Assembly (NCBI GenBank): GCA_016192455.1
Contig: JACPUC010000012.1
Coordinates: 1-64,000 of the forward strand
Origin: Candidatus Tectimicrobiota bacterium
GTDB lineage: Bacteria > JACPUC01
Direction: 5' to 3'
DNA length: 64,000 nucleotides
Every line of letters begins with the position of its first letter. Positions within the stretch are counted from its first letter, which is position 1. Shown here one piece after another: positions 2,869-12,648 of this stretch. Below the pieces are notes generated by a model that did no database searches, had not been told where the DNA came from, and worked only from the letters and a program-made list of their open reading frames with translations. The position numbers were made by a program, and so were the translations under genes.

Positions 2869-2897
2869 ATGACAGCGCCACCCGCACGTGCTAGCAT
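2869..2897 (+). promoter_or_regulatory. extended -10 promoter candidate for pdxA
   Basis: ATGACA (2869-2874) is followed after 17 bases by TAGCAT (2892-2897), preceded by TG one base upstream (TGCTAGCAT, an extended -10). The expected transcription start falls at about 2904-2905, on the first base of the ATG at 2905, so the messenger may be leaderless. The same TGCTAGCAT sequence is found in front of plsC. Confidence 0.45.
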
Positions 2898-2904
2898 GGG
2901 TCCC

Positions 2905-3951
2905 ATGGAACCGGCCCACGCGCAACGCCAAACGTCCCCGGCGCGCCTTGCGGTGACCATGGGTGATCCGGCGGGGATCGGTCCGGAGATCGTCGCCAGG
3001 CTCCTTGCCGACCCCGAGGCGGCGCACTGCCGCATCCTCGTGGTGGGAGCAGCGACGGTGCTGCGCGCCAGGCAGGAGGCCCTGGGGTTGCCGGCGGTGG
3101 AGCCGGTCCTGCGCGCCTCCGAGGTGGATGCCGGCACGCTCCCTGCGCGAGGGCTGCCGGGTCATCCCTGCGTGGTCGATGTTGATGATGGGCTGGCCGC
3201 CGGGCTGCGGCTCGGCAAGGTGCAGCCGGAGGCTGGCGAGCTCGCATATCGCTCCATTTGCACGGCGGTGCGCCTGGTGCAGAACGGCCGTGCCGATGCC
3301 GTGGTGACGGCCCCGATCAACAAGGCGGCGCTGCGGCAGGCCGGGCATGCCTACCCCGGCCACACCGAGCTGCTGGCCGAGCTGTGCGGCAGCGGCGACG
3401 TGGCCATGATGATGGCCGAGGAGCGCCTGAAGGTCACCCTGGCAACCATCCACGTGCCCCTCGCCAAGGTGCCGTCGCTGCTGTCTACGGCGGCGATCGG
3501 CAGTGCCATCCGTTTGACGGCGCAGTTCCTCGGCCGCCTCGGCATGCCCGCGCCGCGCCTGGCGGTGGCGGGGCTGAACCCCCACGCCGGCGAGGGCGGC
3601 CTGTTCGGCGACGAGGAGGAGACGATCATCCGTCCCGCCGTCGAGGCGGCGCGCAGCCGCGGCCTTGACGTGAGCGGGCCGCTGCCGGGTGACGTGGTCT
3701 TCCACCAGGCGGTCCTGGGGCGCTACGATGCCGTCATCGCCATGTATCACGACCAGGGGCTCATTCCCGTGAAGCTCCTGGGGTTCGGCCGGGCGGTGAA
3801 CGTGACTCTGGGCCTGCCCTTCCTGCGCACCTCCGTCGATCACGGCACGGCCTTCGATATCGCCGGGCGCGGCGTCGCCGATGCAACGAGCCTGAAGGTC
3901 GCCACCCTGATGGCGGCGCGCTGGGCCGCGAGGTGGCAGCGTGATCCCTAG
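2905..3951 (+). CDS. pdxA: 4-hydroxythreonine-4-phosphate dehydrogenase
   Basis: PdxA oxidises 4-phosphohydroxy-L-threonine in the DXP-dependent route to pyridoxal 5'-phosphate. The protein opens with the family signature RLAVTMGDPAGIGPEI. It carries the three metal-binding histidines in their usual contexts: YPGHTELLA, ATIHVPLAK and MYHDQGLIPVK. The length of 348 residues is slightly above the family norm because of a short N-terminal tail. The start is uncertain: in-frame ATGs exist at 2869, 2896 and 2905, and none has a convincing ribosome binding site. I chose 2905 because the best promoter places the transcription start there. The end overlaps rsmA by 11 bases, and a pdxA-rsmA pairing is common in bacteria, so translational coupling is likely. 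Confidence 0.93.
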   Translation: MEPAHAQRQTSPARLAVTMGDPAGIGPEIVARLLADPEAAHCRILVVGAATVLRARQEALGLPAVEPVLRASEVDAGTLPARGLPGHPCVVDVDDGLAAGLRLGKVQPEAGELAYRSICTAVRLVQNGRADAVVTAPINKAALRQAGHAYPGHTELLAELCGSGDVAMMMAEERLKVTLATIHVPLAKVPSLLSTAAIGSAIRLTAQFLGRLGMPAPRLAVAGLNPHAGEGGLFGDEEETIIRPAVEAARSRGLDVSGPLPGDVVFHQAVLGRYDAVIAMYHDQGLIPVKLLGFGRAVNVTLGLPFLRTSVDHGTAFDIAGRGVADATSLKVATLMAARWAARWQRDP

Positions 3952-4801
3952 GTCCCGCGGGCGCACCGGCGCGCGCCGGCAGCGGCGGCCGTCGGCCCGC
4001 CTGCGCAGGCGCCAGGGGCGGCACTTCCTGCGCCGCCCGGAGATACTGGCCGAGATCGCGGCCCTGGCGGGCATCGGGCCGCGGCAGACCGTGCTCGAGA
4101 TCGGCTGCGGCGAGGGGTTCCTCACCGCCGCCCTGGCGGAGCAGGCGTGCAAGGTGCTCGCCGTCGAGGTGGATCGGCGCCTCATCGAGGTCGCCCGCCG
4201 CAACCTCCTGCCGGCGCCGAACGTGGCGCTCCTCTGCGCCGACATCCTCAGCCTCGATTTGCGCCGCCTGCCGCCCGGCATCGTCGCGGTGGGGAACCTT
4301 CCGTACTCCATCGCCACGCCGATCATCTTCCGCTGCCTGGAGCATCTCGAGCGCTTCGCCTCGTTGACCTTCACGGTGCAGCTCGAGGTGGCGGAGCGCC
4401 TCGTTGCAAAGCCGGCAACGAAGCCCTACAGCGTGCTGAGCGTCGCCGTGCAGCTCCGCTGTCATGTCGAGGCGCTGCTGAGCATTCCGCGCCGGGCCTT
4501 CTCGCCGCCGCCGCGGGTCGATTCCGCCGTGGTGCGTTTCCTCCCCCTGCGTGAGCCGCCCGTGCCGGCGGCCGAGCAGCCGCAGCTTCTGCGGGTGGTG
4601 CGCACCGCCTTCGCCCAGCGGCGCAAGACGCTGCGCAATGCCCTCCTCGGCGCCGGCTGGCTTGATTGGCGCGGCGGCGACATCGACGCCTGCCTACAGC
4701 GCCTCGGCATTGCTCCCCAGCGCCGCGGGGAGACCTTGAGCCTGGCGGAGTTCGCGGCCCTGGCGCGGGCGGTGCCGCGGCCGCCGGCAGGGCGCCCGTG
4801 A
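3941..4801 (+). CDS. rsmA: 16S rRNA dimethyladenosine transferase RsmA (KsgA)
   Basis: RsmA dimethylates two adjacent adenosines in the 3' terminal hairpin of 16S rRNA with S-adenosylmethionine during late 30S assembly. After a basic tail, the family motif RHFLRRPEIL precedes the SAM-binding motif VLEIGCGEGFLT. The catalytic motif NLPYSIATPI and the later FSPPPRVDSAVVRF block are both present. Length is 286 residues, normal for the family. The start overlaps the pdxA stop by 11 bases, so it is probably translated by coupling. An alternative start inside the basic N-terminal tail cannot be excluded. Confidence 0.95.
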   Translation: MIPRSRGRTGARRQRRPSARLRRRQGRHFLRRPEILAEIAALAGIGPRQTVLEIGCGEGFLTAALAEQACKVLAVEVDRRLIEVARRNLLPAPNVALLCADILSLDLRRLPPGIVAVGNLPYSIATPIIFRCLEHLERFASLTFTVQLEVAERLVAKPATKPYSVLSVAVQLRCHVEALLSIPRRAFSPPPRVDSAVVRFLPLREPPVPAAEQPQLLRVVRTAFAQRRKTLRNALLGAGWLDWRGGDIDACLQRLGIAPQRRGETLSLAEFAALARAVPRPPAGRP

Positions 4802-5685: not shown

Positions 5686-6645
5686 TTACTTGATGGCCAA
5701 GGGGTTGATGGGGCTGCCGATGCCGCCCTTGATATTCAGCGGCTGGGCGATGAAGAGGAACTCGTAGACACCGTCGGCGGCGCAATCCTCCGAGAGCTTT
5801 TCGAGGTCGAAGAGCTCGCCGATCATGACGCCGAGGTCGCGCAGCAGCACCGCATGCAGCGGGTAGAAGGCATCGGGGTGCTGGATGCGCGAGGGCTCCA
5901 CCTCGAGGGAGACGTTATCGGCCGCCACGGCGGCGATCTCATGCTCGTGGATCCAGGGCGCCGTGTCGATGCCCAACCCCGGGTGGCCGTCCTTCCAGTA
6001 AGCGCTCTTGTCCTTCAGGCTATACCAGAACGGCACGTTGCCGGTGCGGATGAGGAGGGCGTCGCCGCTCTTGATCTCCACCTTCTGCGCCGCGGCGGTG
6101 GCCTCGAGGTCGGCGGCGGTGATGACGGCGCTCCCCTTCAGGGCCTCGGCGCCTTTCTGCCGCAGCACATCGAGGAGCACGCCGCGGGTGACGAATTGGG
6201 TGGCGAACTTGCCGATATCGAGCCGCCGCAGGCCGCCGAAGTTGGGGTTGCGCATGTAGGTCTCGGAGAAGCCGTTGTACATCTGGTTGCCGTACCAGGC
6301 ATGGGCGAGACCGTCCCACTGCGTGGTGCTCTGGGTGGAGAGGTGGATGCCGTCGTCGCTGAACTTCACCCCGCCCTCGGGAATCTTGCCGCCGCCGGGC
6401 GCGCCCAGGGCGTAGTCGCCGGCGCCGAAGCGCATCCAGTGCTCGGGCAGGCCGCGGGCCGGGTGCACGGGACCGTGCCGGTCGAGCGGGATGGCGCAGG
6501 TGATCACCTTCCCCCGGCGCACCAGCTTCATGGCGTTCAAGAGCACCTCGGGGGTGATGTAGTTGGCGGCCCCCAGCTCATCATTGGCCCCCCACTTGCC
6601 CCAGTTCGAGAGGCGCGGGAAGGAGAAGTCGCTCGGCTCGGTCAC
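5686..6645 (-). CDS. cyclase-family (kynurenine formamidase-like) metal hydrolase
   Basis: This 319-residue protein belongs to the Mn-dependent cyclase/kynurenine formamidase family (PF04199). The sequence STQSTTQWDGLAHAWYGNQ occupies the place of the HxGTHxDxPxH metal motif, the variant typical of the larger uncharacterised cyclase subfamily. Later blocks such as GDALLIRTGN and SLEVEPSR also fit. Family members hydrolyse cyclic amides or N-formyl groups; the substrate cannot be read from the sequence. The GTG at 6645 is preceded by GAGGAGG at 5 bases, which decides the start. The nitrilase gene lies upstream on the same strand, separated by a palindromic repeat. Confidence 0.85.
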   Translation of the reverse strand: MTEPSDFSFPRLSNWGKWGANDELGAANYITPEVLLNAMKLVRRGKVITCAIPLDRHGPVHPARGLPEHWMRFGAGDYALGAPGGGKIPEGGVKFSDDGIHLSTQSTTQWDGLAHAWYGNQMYNGFSETYMRNPNFGGLRRLDIGKFATQFVTRGVLLDVLRQKGAEALKGSAVITAADLEATAAAQKVEIKSGDALLIRTGNVPFWYSLKDKSAYWKDGHPGLGIDTAPWIHEHEIAAVAADNVSLEVEPSRIQHPDAFYPLHAVLLRDLGVMIGELFDLEKLSEDCAADGVYEFLFIAQPLNIKGGIGSPINPLAIK

Positions 6646-6742
6646 GGTATCCTCCTCACGGGGCGGGAGCACGGGGGCCTGGCGTTTGAGTGATTCACGG
6701 TTCAAGTGCGAGGGAGCCGTGCCCCCTGGCGCACCCCTAATC

Positions 6743-6770
6743 GTAGGGGCGGTTCGCGAACCGCCCCTAC
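6743..6770. repeat. dispersed palindromic element, copy B
   Basis: A perfect 28-base palindrome (GTAGGGGCGGTTCG and its complement) lies between the nitrilase stop and the cyclase start. Its inner 24 bases match copy A at 21-44. The flank toward the nitrilase gene shares further motifs with copy A (TGGGGGAGCA at 6792-6801, GCGAACTT at 6861-6868), ending at the TAG stop complement at 6882-6884. Confidence 0.8.
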
Positions 6771-6881
6771 AGCTCGCGGGAAACGGGAGGCTGGGGGAGC
6801 AAGGGTCCCCCGCCCAACCTCCCCCCGTACCAAGCCGCCCGCGACGCATCCACTTCGCGAGCGAACTTTTACGACCTCACC

Positions 6882-7940
6882 CTACCCCTTCGGCCGCTTC
6901 CAGACGCCGCGTTCCTGCAGGTCGCGGATGACCTTGCGGTGGATTTCCTGGCGCTCGGCGCGCTTCGGCGGCGGCGTGTGCAGAAAGAGGTTTTTCGGGA
7001 AGATCGGCTGCTCGTAGATGAGCTTGTACTGCTCCGTGCGCAGGTCTTTCAACCAGTTGCCGAACAGCGACTTGTCGCGGAAGTCGCGCAGGGCCTCGAT
7101 GTCCACCATAGCGCTGCAGAAGGAGTCGGTGCCGGCGATGTGGTGGGCGATGACCTCGCCCTTGTAGTTGCACATCATCGAATGGCCGCCGGTGATGTCC
7201 CAGCCGTGCGGCGAGTCGGCGCTGAGCATGCCGAGGGCCGGGTTCGGCGCCAGCACGTAGCAGGTGTTGTCGAGGGCGCGCGAGCGGCAGCGCAGCTCGT
7301 ACCAGCCGCGGCCCACCCACGGCTCGGGGTAGCCGGGCATGTAGATGACCTCGGCGCCGTTCATCGCCAGGCCGCGCGCCGTCTCCGGGAAGCTGTGGTC
7401 CATGCAGACGAGGGTGCCGAGGCGGCCGATCTCGGTGTCGCAGACGGGGTAGAAGGCGTTGAGATCATCGCCGTACTTGGCGACGTAGCGGTCCCAGACG
7501 TCGTGCGGCACGGTGCTTGGCTCGTTCGGGTAGACCTGCAGCTTGTGGTACTTGTGGATGACCTTGCCTTCGGGGTTGATGATGTAGGCGAGGTTGAAGT
7601 AGCGGTCCTCGATGAGGTCCGGCTCCACGGCGCGGATTTGGCCGATGAGGTAGATGTTGAAGTCGCGGGCGATGTCGCCCAGGTAGTCGGTCTCCGGCCC
7701 CGGCACCGTGGTCATCAGTTCGCGGCAGGAGCGCACGTGGTCCCAGTCCTGCACCGAGTCGGTGAAGCCCTGGATGGCGCCCTCGGTGAAGCAGATGAGC
7801 TTCACCGGGTACTCGAGGCTGGCCAGCCAGAAGCTGGCGCGGATGCCCTGCGCCAGGTGATCGAGGTTGCGCTTGACGTCATCGCGGCGTTGGATGTTGA
7901 GGAACGTGCTCTGCACGGCGACAGCAGTGTAACGGTCCAT
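6882..7940 (-). CDS. nitrilase-superfamily C-N hydrolase (aliphatic amidase-like)
   Basis: This 352-residue cytoplasmic enzyme of the carbon-nitrogen hydrolase fold has the full Glu-Lys-Cys triad: E53 in FTEGAIQG, K133 in HKYHKLQVYP and C179 in LVCMDHSFPE. It should hydrolyse an amide, carbamoyl group or nitrile; the long C-terminal part after residue 280 is more like amidase-branch members, and the substrate is unknown. The ATG at 7940 follows GGAGGG. It probably shares function or regulation with the cyclase-family hydrolase downstream, though the 236-base gap holding a palindrome means they may be separate units. Confidence 0.88.
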   Translation of the reverse strand: MDRYTAVAVQSTFLNIQRRDDVKRNLDHLAQGIRASFWLASLEYPVKLICFTEGAIQGFTDSVQDWDHVRSCRELMTTVPGPETDYLGDIARDFNIYLIGQIRAVEPDLIEDRYFNLAYIINPEGKVIHKYHKLQVYPNEPSTVPHDVWDRYVAKYGDDLNAFYPVCDTEIGRLGTLVCMDHSFPETARGLAMNGAEVIYMPGYPEPWVGRGWYELRCRSRALDNTCYVLAPNPALGMLSADSPHGWDITGGHSMMCNYKGEVIAHHIAGTDSFCSAMVDIEALRDFRDKSLFGNWLKDLRTEQYKLIYEQPIFPKNLFLHTPPPKRAERQEIHRKVIRDLQERGVWKRPKG

Positions 7941-8171: not shown

Positions 8172-8957
8172 TCAAGCAAACGCCGCCGGCAGGTCGCGCT
8201 CCGGGGGACCGTTGTACACGATGTCGCTCGCCGCGGCGGCCTTGAAGGGGCGCTCCTTGGTCATCTGCTCATGACTGTGCGCCACCAGGCCGACGGTGCG
8301 GGCGATGATGAAGAACCCCTTGCCGAGCCGCCAGTCGATGCCGAGATCGGAGATAAGGGCGGCGATGGCCCCATCGACGTTCAGCGGCAGCTCGCGCCCG
8401 AAGCCTTCCTTGATCGCCCCCTCGAGGGCGAGCGCCAGGCTGGTGTTCGGGCCGATGAGGTGCAGCCGCTCGGCCAGCTCGAGCATCTTCAGGGTGCGGG
8501 GATCGGGGTTGTGGATGGGGTGGCCGTAGCCGAGGATGCGCTGTTTCGCCTGCCGGTACTGCTGCACGACGCGCCGCGCCACCTCGGCGTGCTCGACGCC
8601 GGGGTGCGCCGCCAGGGCCTCCTGGAACATCTTGGCGCACTGCTCGATGGCGCCGCCGTGGATGTCCCCCAGGGCGTTCACGCCGGAGGCCACCGCCGCC
8701 TGCATGGGGACGCCGCAGGAGGCCACGAAGCGCGCCGCGTCAATGGAAGGCGCCGCCAGGCTGTGGTCCACGCTGGAGACGAGGATCGCCTCGATAAGCT
8801 TGCCTTCGTTGCCCTTCGGCAGCTCGCCCGCGAACATCAGGTAGACCACGTCGCCGAAGGAGCAGCGCTCCATGAGGTCCTCGATGCGGTAGCCGCGCAC
8901 CAGAATCTTGCTGCGCGCCACGAAGGAGAGTTCGGTTCGCCAGAAATCGTCAGCCAT
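8172..8957 (-). CDS. citryl-CoA lyase / citrate synthase-like protein
   Basis: This 261-residue protein resembles the stand-alone citryl-CoA lyase of Hydrogenobacter and the C-terminal part of ATP citrate lyase. All three catalytic residues of the citrate synthase fold are present: H100 in GDIHGGA, H146 in LGYGHPIH and D195 in PLNVDGAIAA. The N-terminal dimerisation region of full-size citrate synthase is absent, which favours lyase over synthase. It would split citryl-CoA into acetyl-CoA and oxaloacetate, or run the reverse. It sits downstream of two CoA-ligase-like subunits on the same strand, which supplies a plausible first step. A related hydroxyacyl-CoA substrate is possible. Confidence 0.82.
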   Translation of the reverse strand: MADDFWRTELSFVARSKILVRGYRIEDLMERCSFGDVVYLMFAGELPKGNEGKLIEAILVSSVDHSLAAPSIDAARFVASCGVPMQAAVASGVNALGDIHGGAIEQCAKMFQEALAAHPGVEHAEVARRVVQQYRQAKQRILGYGHPIHNPDPRTLKMLELAERLHLIGPNTSLALALEGAIKEGFGRELPLNVDGAIAALISDLGIDWRLGKGFFIIARTVGLVAHSHEQMTKERPFKAAAASDIVYNGPPERDLPAAFA

Positions 8958-9064
8958 GTGAGTCGCCCCTGTTCGAGTTGCGTCGTCTGGGATGACGTGG
9001 TCGCGTTGAACCGTCGGCGTTGACCCGCGGGAATGGCGCCCGCCGCCAGCCCGCCCGCGCCGCC

Positions 9065-9964
9065 TCAGGTCTTCAGCACCGCGCGCAGCCCGCCGACGAG
9101 GTCGTGCAGCTCCTCGACGACGTGGATGCCGGCGGCGCGCATGGCGGCCATCTTCGTCCTCGTGCTGCCGCGCTCCCCCTCGACGAGCACCGCCGCATGC
9201 CCGAAGCGCATGCCCGGCATCTCATCGACGAAGCGCCCGGCGATGAAGGCGAAGACCGGCAGGGTGGATCCCCCCTTGACGTAGAACTCGGAGAAGGTCT
9301 CCTCGGCGTTGCCCCCCGGCTCGCAGAAGATGACCATGGCCTGCGTCGCCGGGTCCTCCTGGAAGAGGGGCAGCACGTCCATGTACGTGGTGCCGACCAT
9401 CGGGTCGCCGCCGATGCTGACGCAGGTGCTCTGGCCGATCCCCGCCTGGGTGAGGAGGTTGGCGATCTCGGTGGTCATGCCGCCGCTGCGGGAGACGATG
9501 CCCACCGGCCCCTCGGTGTAGGCCTTGCGCACGTCCGCCGCCGGCCCGCCCACCATGCCCGCCTTGGCGCGCGGCGGCGACAGGATGCCGAGGGAGTTCG
9601 GCCCCACGATGCGGGCGCCGCGCTCGTTCGCGAAGGCGATGAAATCGACCACGTCGTGCCGCGGCACGCGCTCCGTCACCACGACGACGAGCTGCACCCC
9701 GGCGTCCACCGCCTCGTAGACGGCGCCGCGCACGAACCCCGCCGGCACCGAGATGACGCTGGTGTTGGCGCCGTGCCGCTCCACCGCCTCGGCGACGCAG
9801 TCGTACACCGGCACGCCGTAGATCGACTCGCCTCCCTTGCCGGGGGTGCAGCCGGCGACGACCTTCGCCCCATAATCGAGGGAATGCTTCGTGAACGTGG
9901 TGGCCTCGCGGCCGGTGATGCCCTGCACTACGATTCGCGTCGCGTCGTCAATCAGAATCGCCAC
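9065..9964 (-). CDS. succinyl-CoA synthetase alpha-like subunit (possible citryl-CoA synthetase small subunit)
   Basis: This 299-residue protein is homologous to SucD. It starts AILIDDATRIVVQGITGRE, has a CoA-binding Rossmann domain, and keeps the phosphohistidine in RFGHAAVL (H256). I chose the GTG at 9964 because GGGGAG precedes it and it reproduces the normal SucD N-terminus; a GTG five codons upstream is also possible. Its location between a SucC-like gene and a citryl-CoA lyase suggests that the CoA acceptor is citrate (as in CcsB) or another carboxylate such as malate (as in MtkB), rather than succinate. Sequence alone does not decide among these. Confidence 0.85.
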   Translation of the reverse strand: MAILIDDATRIVVQGITGREATTFTKHSLDYGAKVVAGCTPGKGGESIYGVPVYDCVAEAVERHGANTSVISVPAGFVRGAVYEAVDAGVQLVVVVTERVPRHDVVDFIAFANERGARIVGPNSLGILSPPRAKAGMVGGPAADVRKAYTEGPVGIVSRSGGMTTEIANLLTQAGIGQSTCVSIGGDPMVGTTYMDVLPLFQEDPATQAMVIFCEPGGNAEETFSEFYVKGGSTLPVFAFIAGRFVDEMPGMRFGHAAVLVEGERGSTRTKMAAMRAAGIHVVEELHDLVGGLRAVLKT

Positions 9965-10031
9965 CGTCGATCTCCCCACCTCAGTGCATCGTCAGAGTTC
10001 CCCCCGGGTTCGTTGTCGAGCTCGTTGCTGC

Positions 10032-11219
10032 TTACGCCGCCGCAAAGGCCGCCACGGCGCGCCGCGCTGCTTCGTCGATGGAAACGGTGCGGTCGCAGTA
10101 CGTGACGCCGTACTTCTTCAGGATCATGAAGCCGTCCCCCTCGTAGGAGCCGGGAATGCGGAAAATGGCGATCTTCTCCGCCGGCTTCTCGCCGCGCTCG
10201 ACGATGGCCTTGATGACGCCGCGGGCGACCAGATCGACGCGAGTGTTGCTGACGACGTTCATGATGACGGCGATCTTCTCCACCCCCGGCTTGCTGAGGA
10301 GGTGGGCAACGAGGCGCTGCACCTTGCGGACGCTGGGGTTGCCGCCGATCTCGCAGTAGTTCGCCGGCTTGCCGCCGTGCTTGCGGATGGCGTCGAAGAC
10401 CGTCAGGCTGGCGCCGCCGCCGCCGATGAGGAGGCCGAGCTGGCCGTCGAACTCGATCATGCGGCCGGCCACGCCGCGGTGGTCGCTGGCGTCGATCGCC
10501 GCCGCCGCCAGCTCGAAGGGCGTGGGGGGACGGGCGCCGGCCTCGCGCTTCGGGATGCCGTACTTCTCCTGCAGCTCGGCGTGCCGGCTGAGGGCGTCAT
10601 CCTCGATGTCGATGTGGGCGTCGGCGGCCAGGAAGCGGCCGTCGGCGGTCTGCACGATGGGGTTGATCTCGGCGATCGTCGCATCCATGCGCTGGAAGAG
10701 AGTGGCGAGGCGGTGCAGGATGGCGCCGAGCTGCATGAGGGGGCGGCCGCTGAGGCCGGCCTTGCCGACCATCTGGCGGGCATGGAAGTCATGGAAGCCG
10801 ACGCGGGGGTTGTAGGCGCGGCTGACGACGGCCTCCGGGCGCTCCTTGGCGAGAGTCTCGATGTCCACCCCGCCGGCGGCCGAGAAGAGCACCACCGGCT
10901 GCTTCTGGGCGAGGTTGTGGGTGGCCGCGGCGAAGAACTCCTGCTCCACCTGCAGGCGCTCCTCGACCAAGAGCTTCTCCACCTTATGGTTCAGTATGGT
11001 GCGGCCCAGGAGGTCGGCGGCGATGGCGCGGGCTTCCGCTTCGGTGTCGGCGAACTTCACGCCGCCCGCCTTCATGCGGCCGCCCGAGAGCACCTGTACC
11101 TTCAGGACGCGCCGCGCATCTCCGGCGATCTCCTCCGGGGAGCTGATCACCTGGCCTTGCGGGAGTGGAATGCCGTAGGCAGCCAGCAGCCGTTTCGCTT
11201 CGTATTCGTAGAGTCGCAT
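10032..11219 (-). CDS. succinyl-CoA synthetase beta-like ATP-grasp subunit (possible citryl-CoA synthetase large subunit)
   Basis: This 395-residue protein is homologous to SucC. The ATP-grasp domain begins RLYEYEAKRLLAAYGIPLP, contains KVQVLSGGRMKAGGVKF, and ends with AEINPIVQTADGRFLAADAH. The C-terminal ligase domain has LIGGGGASLTVFDAI and ANYCEIGGNPS, where ordinary SucC usually reads NFLDVGG; this difference points away from a housekeeping succinyl-CoA synthetase. AGGGGAG precedes the ATG. Order on the minus strand is beta, alpha, citryl-CoA lyase, with gaps of 67 and 107 bases, consistent with one operon. I infer a role in two-step citrate (or malate-type) cleavage. Confidence 0.83.
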   Translation of the reverse strand: MRLYEYEAKRLLAAYGIPLPQGQVISSPEEIAGDARRVLKVQVLSGGRMKAGGVKFADTEAEARAIAADLLGRTILNHKVEKLLVEERLQVEQEFFAAATHNLAQKQPVVLFSAAGGVDIETLAKERPEAVVSRAYNPRVGFHDFHARQMVGKAGLSGRPLMQLGAILHRLATLFQRMDATIAEINPIVQTADGRFLAADAHIDIEDDALSRHAELQEKYGIPKREAGARPPTPFELAAAAIDASDHRGVAGRMIEFDGQLGLLIGGGGASLTVFDAIRKHGGKPANYCEIGGNPSVRKVQRLVAHLLSKPGVEKIAVIMNVVSNTRVDLVARGVIKAIVERGEKPAEKIAIFRIPGSYEGDGFMILKKYGVTYCDRTVSIDEAARRAVAAFAAA

Positions 11220-11481: not shown

Positions 11482-12489
11482 CTACATGGCGCCCTCCACC
11501 CCGATCTTCTTCAGCTCCTTCGCCGCTGTTTTCGCGCTCACCGGCAGGTAGCCGTCCTTCACTACGACGAGCTGCCCCTCCTTGCTGAAGACGAACTTGA
11601 GGAACTCACGGCGCAGCACGTCGAGCTCCCGGTTCGGGTCCTTCACGAGATAGATATTCAGGTAGCGGCTGATGGGGTAGTTGCCCTTGACCACCATCTC
11701 GAAAGTCGGCAGGTAGGCCTTCGCCCCCTCTTTCTTGGCTACGGCCAGGGCTTTCACATCCGAGGTCCGATAGCCGATGCCGCTGTAGCCGATGCCGTTG
11801 CGATCCTCGGTGATGCCCTGCACGACAGAGGCGGAACCCGGCTGTTCCTTCACCTCGTCCTTGTAGTCACCCTCCTTCAGCGCCCCCTCTTTAAAGTACC
11901 CGTAGGTGCCGGAGGCGGAATTGCGCCCATACAGACTGAGGCGCCGGGTTGCCCATTCGCCGCGCAGGCCGAGGTCGCCCCAGGTGGTGATGGCGCGGGG
12001 GTAGCCATGCTTGCGCGTCTTCGAGAAGATCGCGTCCACCTGCGCCAGCGTCAGCTCCTGCAGGGGGTTATCCTTGTTGACGTAAACTGAGAGGCCATCG
12101 AGGGCCACGCTCAGGCGCGCGGGCTTGAAGCCGTACTTCTTCTCGAACGCGTCCTGCTCGTTGGATTTCATGAGGCGGGACATGGGGCCGAACTGCGCCG
12201 TGCCGGCGGCGAGGGCGGGCGGCGCCGTGCTCGAGCCTTTCCCCTCCACCTGGATGTTCACGTTCGGGTAGTACTTCTCGAACCCCTCCGCCCACAGCGT
12301 CACGAGGTTCACCATCGTATCGGAGCCCACGCTGCTGAGGTTGCCGCTCACTCCTTGCACTGCCCGGTAGCTCGGCAGCGCCGGGTCCACCTGCACGGGT
12401 TGCGCTGCCACCCAGACCGGCCAGCTCAGGACGAGCAGGAGAGCTAGGGCCCAAAGGCCGCGCCGACGAGAACCGGATGCCCGCGTCAT
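11482..12489 (-). CDS. PstS-like phosphate ABC transporter substrate-binding protein
   Basis: This 335-residue periplasmic binding protein has a signal peptide (hydrophobic residues 12-27, cleavage expected after WVAA). The mature part shows PstS features: VGSDTMVNLVTLWAEGF, a GSSTAPPALAAGTA phosphate-loop segment, YGRNSASGTYGYF, and YPISRYLNIYLVKDP. It should bind phosphate or a similar oxyanion. No pstC, pstA, pstB or phoU lies beside it, so it is an orphan here. The start at 12489 is fixed by AGGAGG six bases upstream. Confidence 0.85.
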   Translation of the reverse strand: MTRASGSRRRGLWALALLLVLSWPVWVAAQPVQVDPALPSYRAVQGVSGNLSSVGSDTMVNLVTLWAEGFEKYYPNVNIQVEGKGSSTAPPALAAGTAQFGPMSRLMKSNEQDAFEKKYGFKPARLSVALDGLSVYVNKDNPLQELTLAQVDAIFSKTRKHGYPRAITTWGDLGLRGEWATRRLSLYGRNSASGTYGYFKEGALKEGDYKDEVKEQPGSASVVQGITEDRNGIGYSGIGYRTSDVKALAVAKKEGAKAYLPTFEMVVKGNYPISRYLNIYLVKDPNRELDVLRREFLKFVFSKEGQLVVVKDGYLPVSAKTAAKELKKIGVEGAM

Positions 12490-12648
12490 GGTTTTCCTCC
12501 TTTCCACCGCATGGTGTGCTGCATGAGGGCCCGGCCCGCGTGGCCCGAAGGCGACGCCGCAGCCACGCCGGGCAGGAGCCGCGATGCTGCGTTGGGAATA
12601 ACATAGCAGGACCGTGTGCCGATCAGTTGAACACGCGGCAACGAGACG

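Follow-up and report, generated by a model that had tools for sequence, protein, structure and literature searches.

Organization of the locus

The window, i.e., the whole 64,000-nucleotide stretch of DNA analysed here, carries three intact open reading frames on the minus strand, separated by intergenic gaps of 52 and 107 bp, which encode the beta and alpha subunits of a CoA ligase and a short lyase with the citrate-synthase fold. The grouping of the three on one strand, first recognized in a first-pass annotation of this DNA, is borne out by our ORF check. The genes of the cluster and its surroundings are as follows:

10032-11219, minus strand: ligase beta gene; ATP-grasp and CoA-ligase domains, SucC-like, 395 aa
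9065-9979, minus strand: ligase alpha gene; SucD-like, 304 aa
8172-8957, minus strand: lyase gene; short citrate-synthase fold, 261 aa
6882-7940, minus strand: C-N hydrolase (nitrilase superfamily) gene, 232 bp downstream of the lyase
5686-6849, minus strand: PF04199 cyclase-family hydrolase gene; start likely internal to the ORF
11482-12507: PstS-like gene, upstream of the cluster
1166-2785: icd, a genuine gene
144-1313: mdh, a genuine gene
2869-3951: pdxA-like gene (named from sequence), between icd/mdh and the cluster
3941-4801: ksgA-like gene (named from sequence), between icd/mdh and the cluster

The icd and mdh genes do lie within 10 kb of the cluster, as had been remarked earlier; however, about 5 kb of unrelated genes, part of them (the pdxA-like and ksgA-like ones) on the opposite strand, intervene. 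We accordingly reject a functional link and regard the nearness as incidental. The C-N hydrolase and the PF04199 cyclase form a same-strand pair downstream of the lyase (5686-7940). A comparison of the neighborhoods of related loci found neither an amidase of this kind nor a cyclase beside any related cluster examined, and we rejected a conserved pathway role for the pair.

The lyase

The lyase shows the catalytic triad that had been assigned to it (H100, H146 and D195), as confirmed by alignment to the Hydrogenobacter citryl-CoA lyase (CCL; PDB 6hxp) and citrate synthase. That CCL is its top PDB match (204 bits, E 2e-59), followed by ATP-citrate lyase (ACLY) and then citrate synthases; it is of the citrate type rather than of the malyl-CoA-lyase fold. 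More broadly, H65, H100, H146, R154, D195, R220 and R236 align with the substrate-binding and catalytic residues of citrate synthase, whose roles we assume to be those known from established structures of that enzyme. All the substrate arginines (R154, R220 and R236) are kept, including those holding the second carboxylate.

In its chain length (about 260-270 aa for this type) and H/H/D triad the protein resembles the characterized Hydrogenobacter Ccl, but it does not share its clade. In a tree of 43 sequences, it falls in a 12-row clade, the 94/94 support of which is slightly below the tree program's own threshold, whereas CCL falls in a separate 17-row clade (99/99); grouping the window lyase with CCL is rejected by the AU test (p 0.0002). 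The clade is typified by a GHP motif (H146-P147 in the window) as against GHR or GHK in CCL, ACLY and the citrate synthase of the window genome, with citryl-CoA lyase itself displaying GHR. Likewise, its members mostly show DHS..APS where CCL has DHG..PPS.

These observations bear on a rival reading of the locus, namely a divergent citryl-CoA synthetase and lyase, part of a TCA cycle run reductively or in both directions, that would convert citrate, ATP and CoA via citryl-CoA to acetyl-CoA and oxaloacetate or carry out the opposite conversion. The identity of the closest solved relative and the retention of every substrate arginine speak for citrate and count against the alternative substrate, citramalate, which we favor below; the GHP motif and the separation from CCL point away from citrate.

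The ligase

The beta and alpha subunits match PDB chains of both succinyl-CoA and citryl-CoA synthetases. Their scores do not reach the NCBIfam thresholds of sucC (265 versus 376 bits) and sucD (295 versus 353 bits), nor that of malate-CoA ligase (NF010647; 202 versus 604 bits). The alpha subunit retains the phospho-histidine motif RFGHAA (H261) and the glutamate of CEPGG. In the beta subunit, the substrate loops read GGGGAS (266-271), YCEIGGNP (288-295), SNTRVD (324-329) and FRIPG (353-357); the departure from SucC around NYCEIGGNPS that had caught the eye earlier is evident in the alignment. The GGGGAS and SNTR-D loops of this ligase clade are much like those of CcsA, while SucC and MtkA have NGAGLAM and NIFGG/AG-RCD instead.

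The RR[GN]GP motif of ACLY, CcsA and AclB is, however, replaced in 13/13 members of the clade by FR[IV]PG, which places Ile or Val at the arginine position, or by YRGAG, the variant of Mnemosynella. We take this arginine to be the equivalent of ACLY Arg379, which contacts citrate in the ACLY structures. Members of the clade retain the SNTR-D loop, which lies near ACLY Asn346 (in a few it reads SNSR or NNTR), and its asparagine presumably corresponds to a citrate-pocket residue of ACLY. Thus, with respect to the citrate pocket of ACLY, the window ligase has the SNTR-D loop together with a hydrophobic residue in place of the arginine. As citramalate bears a methyl group at the site of citrate's CH2-carboxylate, such a replacement of a carboxylate-binding arginine fits citramalate.

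A tree of 30 beta sequences places the window protein in a clade of 13 (99/97), separate from SucC plus MtkA, CcsA, AclB and a ferredoxin-tailed type from Aminicenantes; MtkA itself lies inside the SucC clade. AU tests, designed after seeing the tree, reject the grouping of the window beta with SucC/MtkA (p 5e-47) and with CcsA alone (p 0.0045), whereas a single clade of the whole window-type family and CcsA is not rejected (p 0.233). We therefore rejected an identity with MtkAB, on account of the position of MtkA, the AU test and the NF010647 score, as well as a housekeeping succinyl-CoA synthetase isozyme, on account of the tree and the AU test. Nonetheless, the unrejected union of the family with CcsA, together with a match to the citrate-binding Pfam domain that is marginally above the cut-off on the window, L038 and L136 betas (52 bits on real CcsA; unreported for SucC/MtkA), counts against citramalate; the shared GGGGAS, GGNP and SNTR-D loops likewise favor the citrate reading.

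The ligase might also be viewed as a second succinyl-CoA synthetase with an incidental lyase neighbor, given its membership in the SCS-like family and its location in one genome (G203) beside succinate dehydrogenase/fumarate reductase-like genes. We consider this very improbable: in addition to the distinct clade and the rebuilt substrate loops, a canonical-type beta is also found in the window genome and most other genomes tested, and the window-type ligase repeatedly adjoins a lyase in several phyla.

Related clusters and their genomic contexts

The nearest complete cluster, from Aerophobetes (L038), encodes proteins with 50, 57 and 56% identity to the window beta, alpha and lyase, respectively. 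Here the trio is followed on the same strand by an ORF without a Pfam match, the S and E subunits of glutamate mutase and methylaspartate ammonia-lyase; a class I fumarase, needed as mesaconase, is encoded in the same genome. The methylaspartate pathway ends in (S)-citramalate, and in Clostridia its gene cluster includes genes that carry a citrate lyase annotation but putatively encode citramalate lyase (PMC4682846). The Aerophobetes trio thus occupies the slot of the clostridial citramalate lyase, a context that points to citramalate and away from citrate. This operon is seen beside the cluster in one genome, and glutamate mutase was rejected as a general companion since its other matches were weak and probably represent different B12 mutases. 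Our literature search returned nothing on a citramalate ligase paired with a citryl-CoA lyase or on Aerophobetes with methylaspartate.

The distribution of the genes adds to this picture. The window-type ligase is present in 6/12 genomes with a GHP lyase, 0/24 genomes with other short lyases and 9/386 sampled genomes. Among 14 genomes with the ligase, the six with a GHP lyase have no CitE-type lyase (0/6), while 7/8 of those without one do (Fisher p 0.005, from few genomes that are partly related and in some cases incomplete). In one genome (G391), a CitE/RipC-like lyase immediately precedes beta-alpha; lyases of the RipC type act on citramalyl-CoA. In Lentisphaerae the trio is lodged between the E2 and E1 genes of a pyruvate-type 2-oxoacid dehydrogenase, with sugar-acid genes around it. 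Acidobacteria have the GHP lyase without the window-type ligase, so there it must be fed differently.

Some of these contexts suggest that another 2-hydroxy acid, such as malate, a 2-methylmalate isomer or a longer 2-substituted succinate, might be split into acetyl-CoA and a different 2-oxo acid. The sugar-acid genes of Lentisphaerae would fit this, as would a second GHP-type lyase in the Mnemosynella archaeon (L239, 7007-7780) beside a GlcD-like hydroxyacid oxidase and Fe-S genes, and CoA-transferase and hydroxyacyl-CoA dehydratase genes in the ligase context of G102. In the window, the acid could be released from an amide or a cyclic compound by the C-N hydrolase and the cyclase; yet this pair is not conserved with the cluster, and we know of no citrate-synthase-fold enzyme that cleaves malyl-CoA. 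We hold this explanation to be unlikely.

Metabolic setting in the window genome

The window genome (4.46 Mb, 88% complete) shares only its domain with every sampled genome. It encodes a separate sucCD, a search for which had been suggested earlier, adjoining succinate dehydrogenase and class I fumarase, as well as a full-length citrate synthase; because of these, the beta-alpha-lyase cluster is an extra module. The ligase thus neither clusters with SucCD nor comes from a genome that lacks any other sucCD, the two findings that had been named earlier as refuting. Six 2-oxoacid:ferredoxin oxidoreductase alpha-type genes lie on contigs C1, C8, C9, C22 and C31; one is clearly of the OAFO-type 2-oxoacid:acceptor oxidoreductases. 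The first-pass annotation had proposed looking for a 2-oxoglutarate:ferredoxin oxidoreductase.

That oxidoreductase lends some support to citrate as the substrate and leaves a reductive cycle conceivable, whereas the full-length citrate synthase speaks against the citrate reading. Nothing in the window indicates carbon fixation, and the earlier suggestions of CO2 fixation and of an unusual cytosolic acetyl-CoA route find no support in a gene set of citrate synthase, sucCD, succinate dehydrogenase and class I fumarase, with icd and mdh unlinked to the cluster. What survives of the original interpretation is a ligase-lyase module that is neither SucCD nor MtkAB with malyl-CoA lyase; its assignment to citrate is weakened by the separate clades, the lost arginine and the Aerophobetes context, and we regard it as doubtful. 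Glutamate mutase was not found in this 88% complete assembly, and no source of citramalate is evident in it beyond the class I fumarase.

Proposed function

Taken together, we suggest, with evenly balanced confidence, that the trio comprises a citramalate:CoA ligase and a citrate-synthase-fold citramalyl-CoA lyase. The replaced ACLY/CcsA arginine, the GHP lyase, the Aerophobetes operon, the mutual exclusion of GHP and CitE-type lyases and the CitE/RipC-like lyase of G391 support citramalate; the E2/E1 context in Lentisphaerae and the occurrence of the ligase in half of the genomes with GHP lyases and in none of those with other short lyases are counted on the same side. On the other side, beyond the features shared with citrate-acting enzymes, stand the occurrence of the methylaspartate operon in one genome, the Acidobacteria lyase without the ligase and the want of an evident citramalate source; the association with citramalate genes is clear in Aerophobetes, and in the window genome it comes down to the class I fumarase. 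On these sequence-based grounds citramalate appears better supported than citrate, which is possible.

Briefly, we envisage the following mechanism. Beta-alpha would join a 2-hydroxy acid to CoA at the expense of ATP, and citramalate (2-methylmalate) is most likely its specific substrate: the beta subunit, using ATP, would phosphorylate H261 of alpha, and the phosphate would then activate the CH2-COOH arm of the acid for transfer to CoA. The H/H/D triad of the lyase would cleave the C-C bond of citramalyl-CoA in a retro-Claisen reaction to give acetyl-CoA and pyruvate, the carbonyl of the latter arising at the hydroxyl-bearing carbon. In the window genome the class I fumarase could supply citramalate from mesaconate. 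Like the substrate, we infer the direction of the reaction in this organism and any physical coupling of ligase and lyase.

More tentatively, we propose that these clusters represent an undescribed citramalate module, which would combine a dedicated SCS-type ligase with the first citramalyl-CoA lyase of the citrate-synthase fold, occur in archaea as well as in several phyla of bacteria, stand in for citramalate lyase in an operon for glutamate fermentation and currently go under the label of citryl-CoA lyase. If citramalate is the substrate, a path so far unrecorded would connect citramalate with acetyl-CoA and pyruvate, and the fold would gain a new activity. In the strain of E. coli examined by Kronen and Berg (PMC4682846), citramalate lyase activity was not found, and the authors considered it unclear what becomes of its (S)-citramalate; other routes of citramalate cleavage are worth knowing.

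Short citrate-synthase-fold lyases more widely

Short lyases of this fold pair with several activating enzymes and form several clades. In Nitrospira the lyase occurs with CcsAB. In Aminicenantes (L102, L114 and L115), a beta subunit with a C-terminal ferredoxin-like region and an SGVASQEQ loop neighbors genes for alpha, a short lyase, an HD-domain protein, a LeuC/LeuD-type aconitase and an IDH/homoisocitrate-type dehydrogenase, possibly a citrate-forming or citrate-splitting operon. In Thermoplasmata (L093, L095, L099 and L104), a CitF-like citrate CoA-transferase lies immediately 5' of the lyase, with an aconitase-like gene after it at several loci, in effect a hybrid between citrate lyase and citryl-CoA lyase that pairs a CoA-transferase with a lyase. 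Zixibacteria have the short lyase with no window-type ligase adjacent, and several of their genomes encode a GGISRCD-type beta elsewhere.

In L047 and other loci of Zixibacteria, GN15 and Ignavibacteria, the short lyase sits beside VorB/PorB/PorC-type 2-oxoacid oxidoreductase, NuoE/NuoF-like and Fe-S genes and has no ligase of the window type next to it; the genomes concerned encode a beta of unusual type, marked by FMDSGGG and RFGGISRCD loops. Plasmids of Azospirillum and Rhodococcus (L151 and L152) carry another SCS-like ligase clade, with FLEIGG and NFCGAFARTD loops, which follows an aldehyde dehydrogenase gene; Azospirillum additionally has a tripartite tricarboxylate transporter there.

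In surveys of carbon fixation, CCL and CCS are taken to be key enzymes of the reductive TCA cycle (e.g., PMC9802188), and clusters such as the present one are routinely labelled as citrate-splitting carbon fixation and are liable to be counted towards that cycle. With several short lyase clades accompanied by differing ligases, the annotation "citryl-CoA lyase" alone is a poor marker for it.

Comparison with known systems

Among known systems, the CcsA/CcsB plus Ccl pair of Hydrogenobacter thermophilus (6hxq, 6hxp) offers a close parallel in combining a two-subunit SCS-like ligase with a separate short citrate-synthase-fold lyase, along with GGGG[AS]S-type, GGNP and SNTR-D loops and the H/H/D triad. 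However, both its proteins belong to other clades (the betas being about 32% identical), and the window cluster has FR[IV]PG for the RRNGP arginine and GHP for GHR. The clostridial citramalate lyase (CitDEF-like) catalyzes the net C-C cleavage that we propose for the module, and its genes are placed in a glutamate-mutase/methylaspartate ammonia-lyase operon much as the Aerophobetes trio is; in contrast to it, the proposed module would dispense with the ACP complex, use free CoA and ATP, possess an unrelated fold and yield acetyl-CoA rather than acetate. The (S)-citramalyl-CoA lyases RipC/Ccl/CLYBL would share the proposed reaction, and CitE-type enzymes take the place of the citrate-synthase-fold lyase in other genomes with the ligase; theirs, however, is a TIM-barrel CitE fold, usually fed by a CoA-transferase. 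MtkA/MtkB with malyl-CoA lyase, from the serine cycle, follows the same ligase-plus-lyase logic, but MtkA has a NIFAGINRCD loop within the SucC clade, and its lyase is of the CitE fold. Finally, SucC/SucD shares the fold, the catalytic histidine and the ATP-grasp domain with the window ligase, yet is set apart by its NGAGLAM, GGGA and NIFGGI-RCD loops and its separate clade, and is represented by a canonical pair elsewhere in the window genome.
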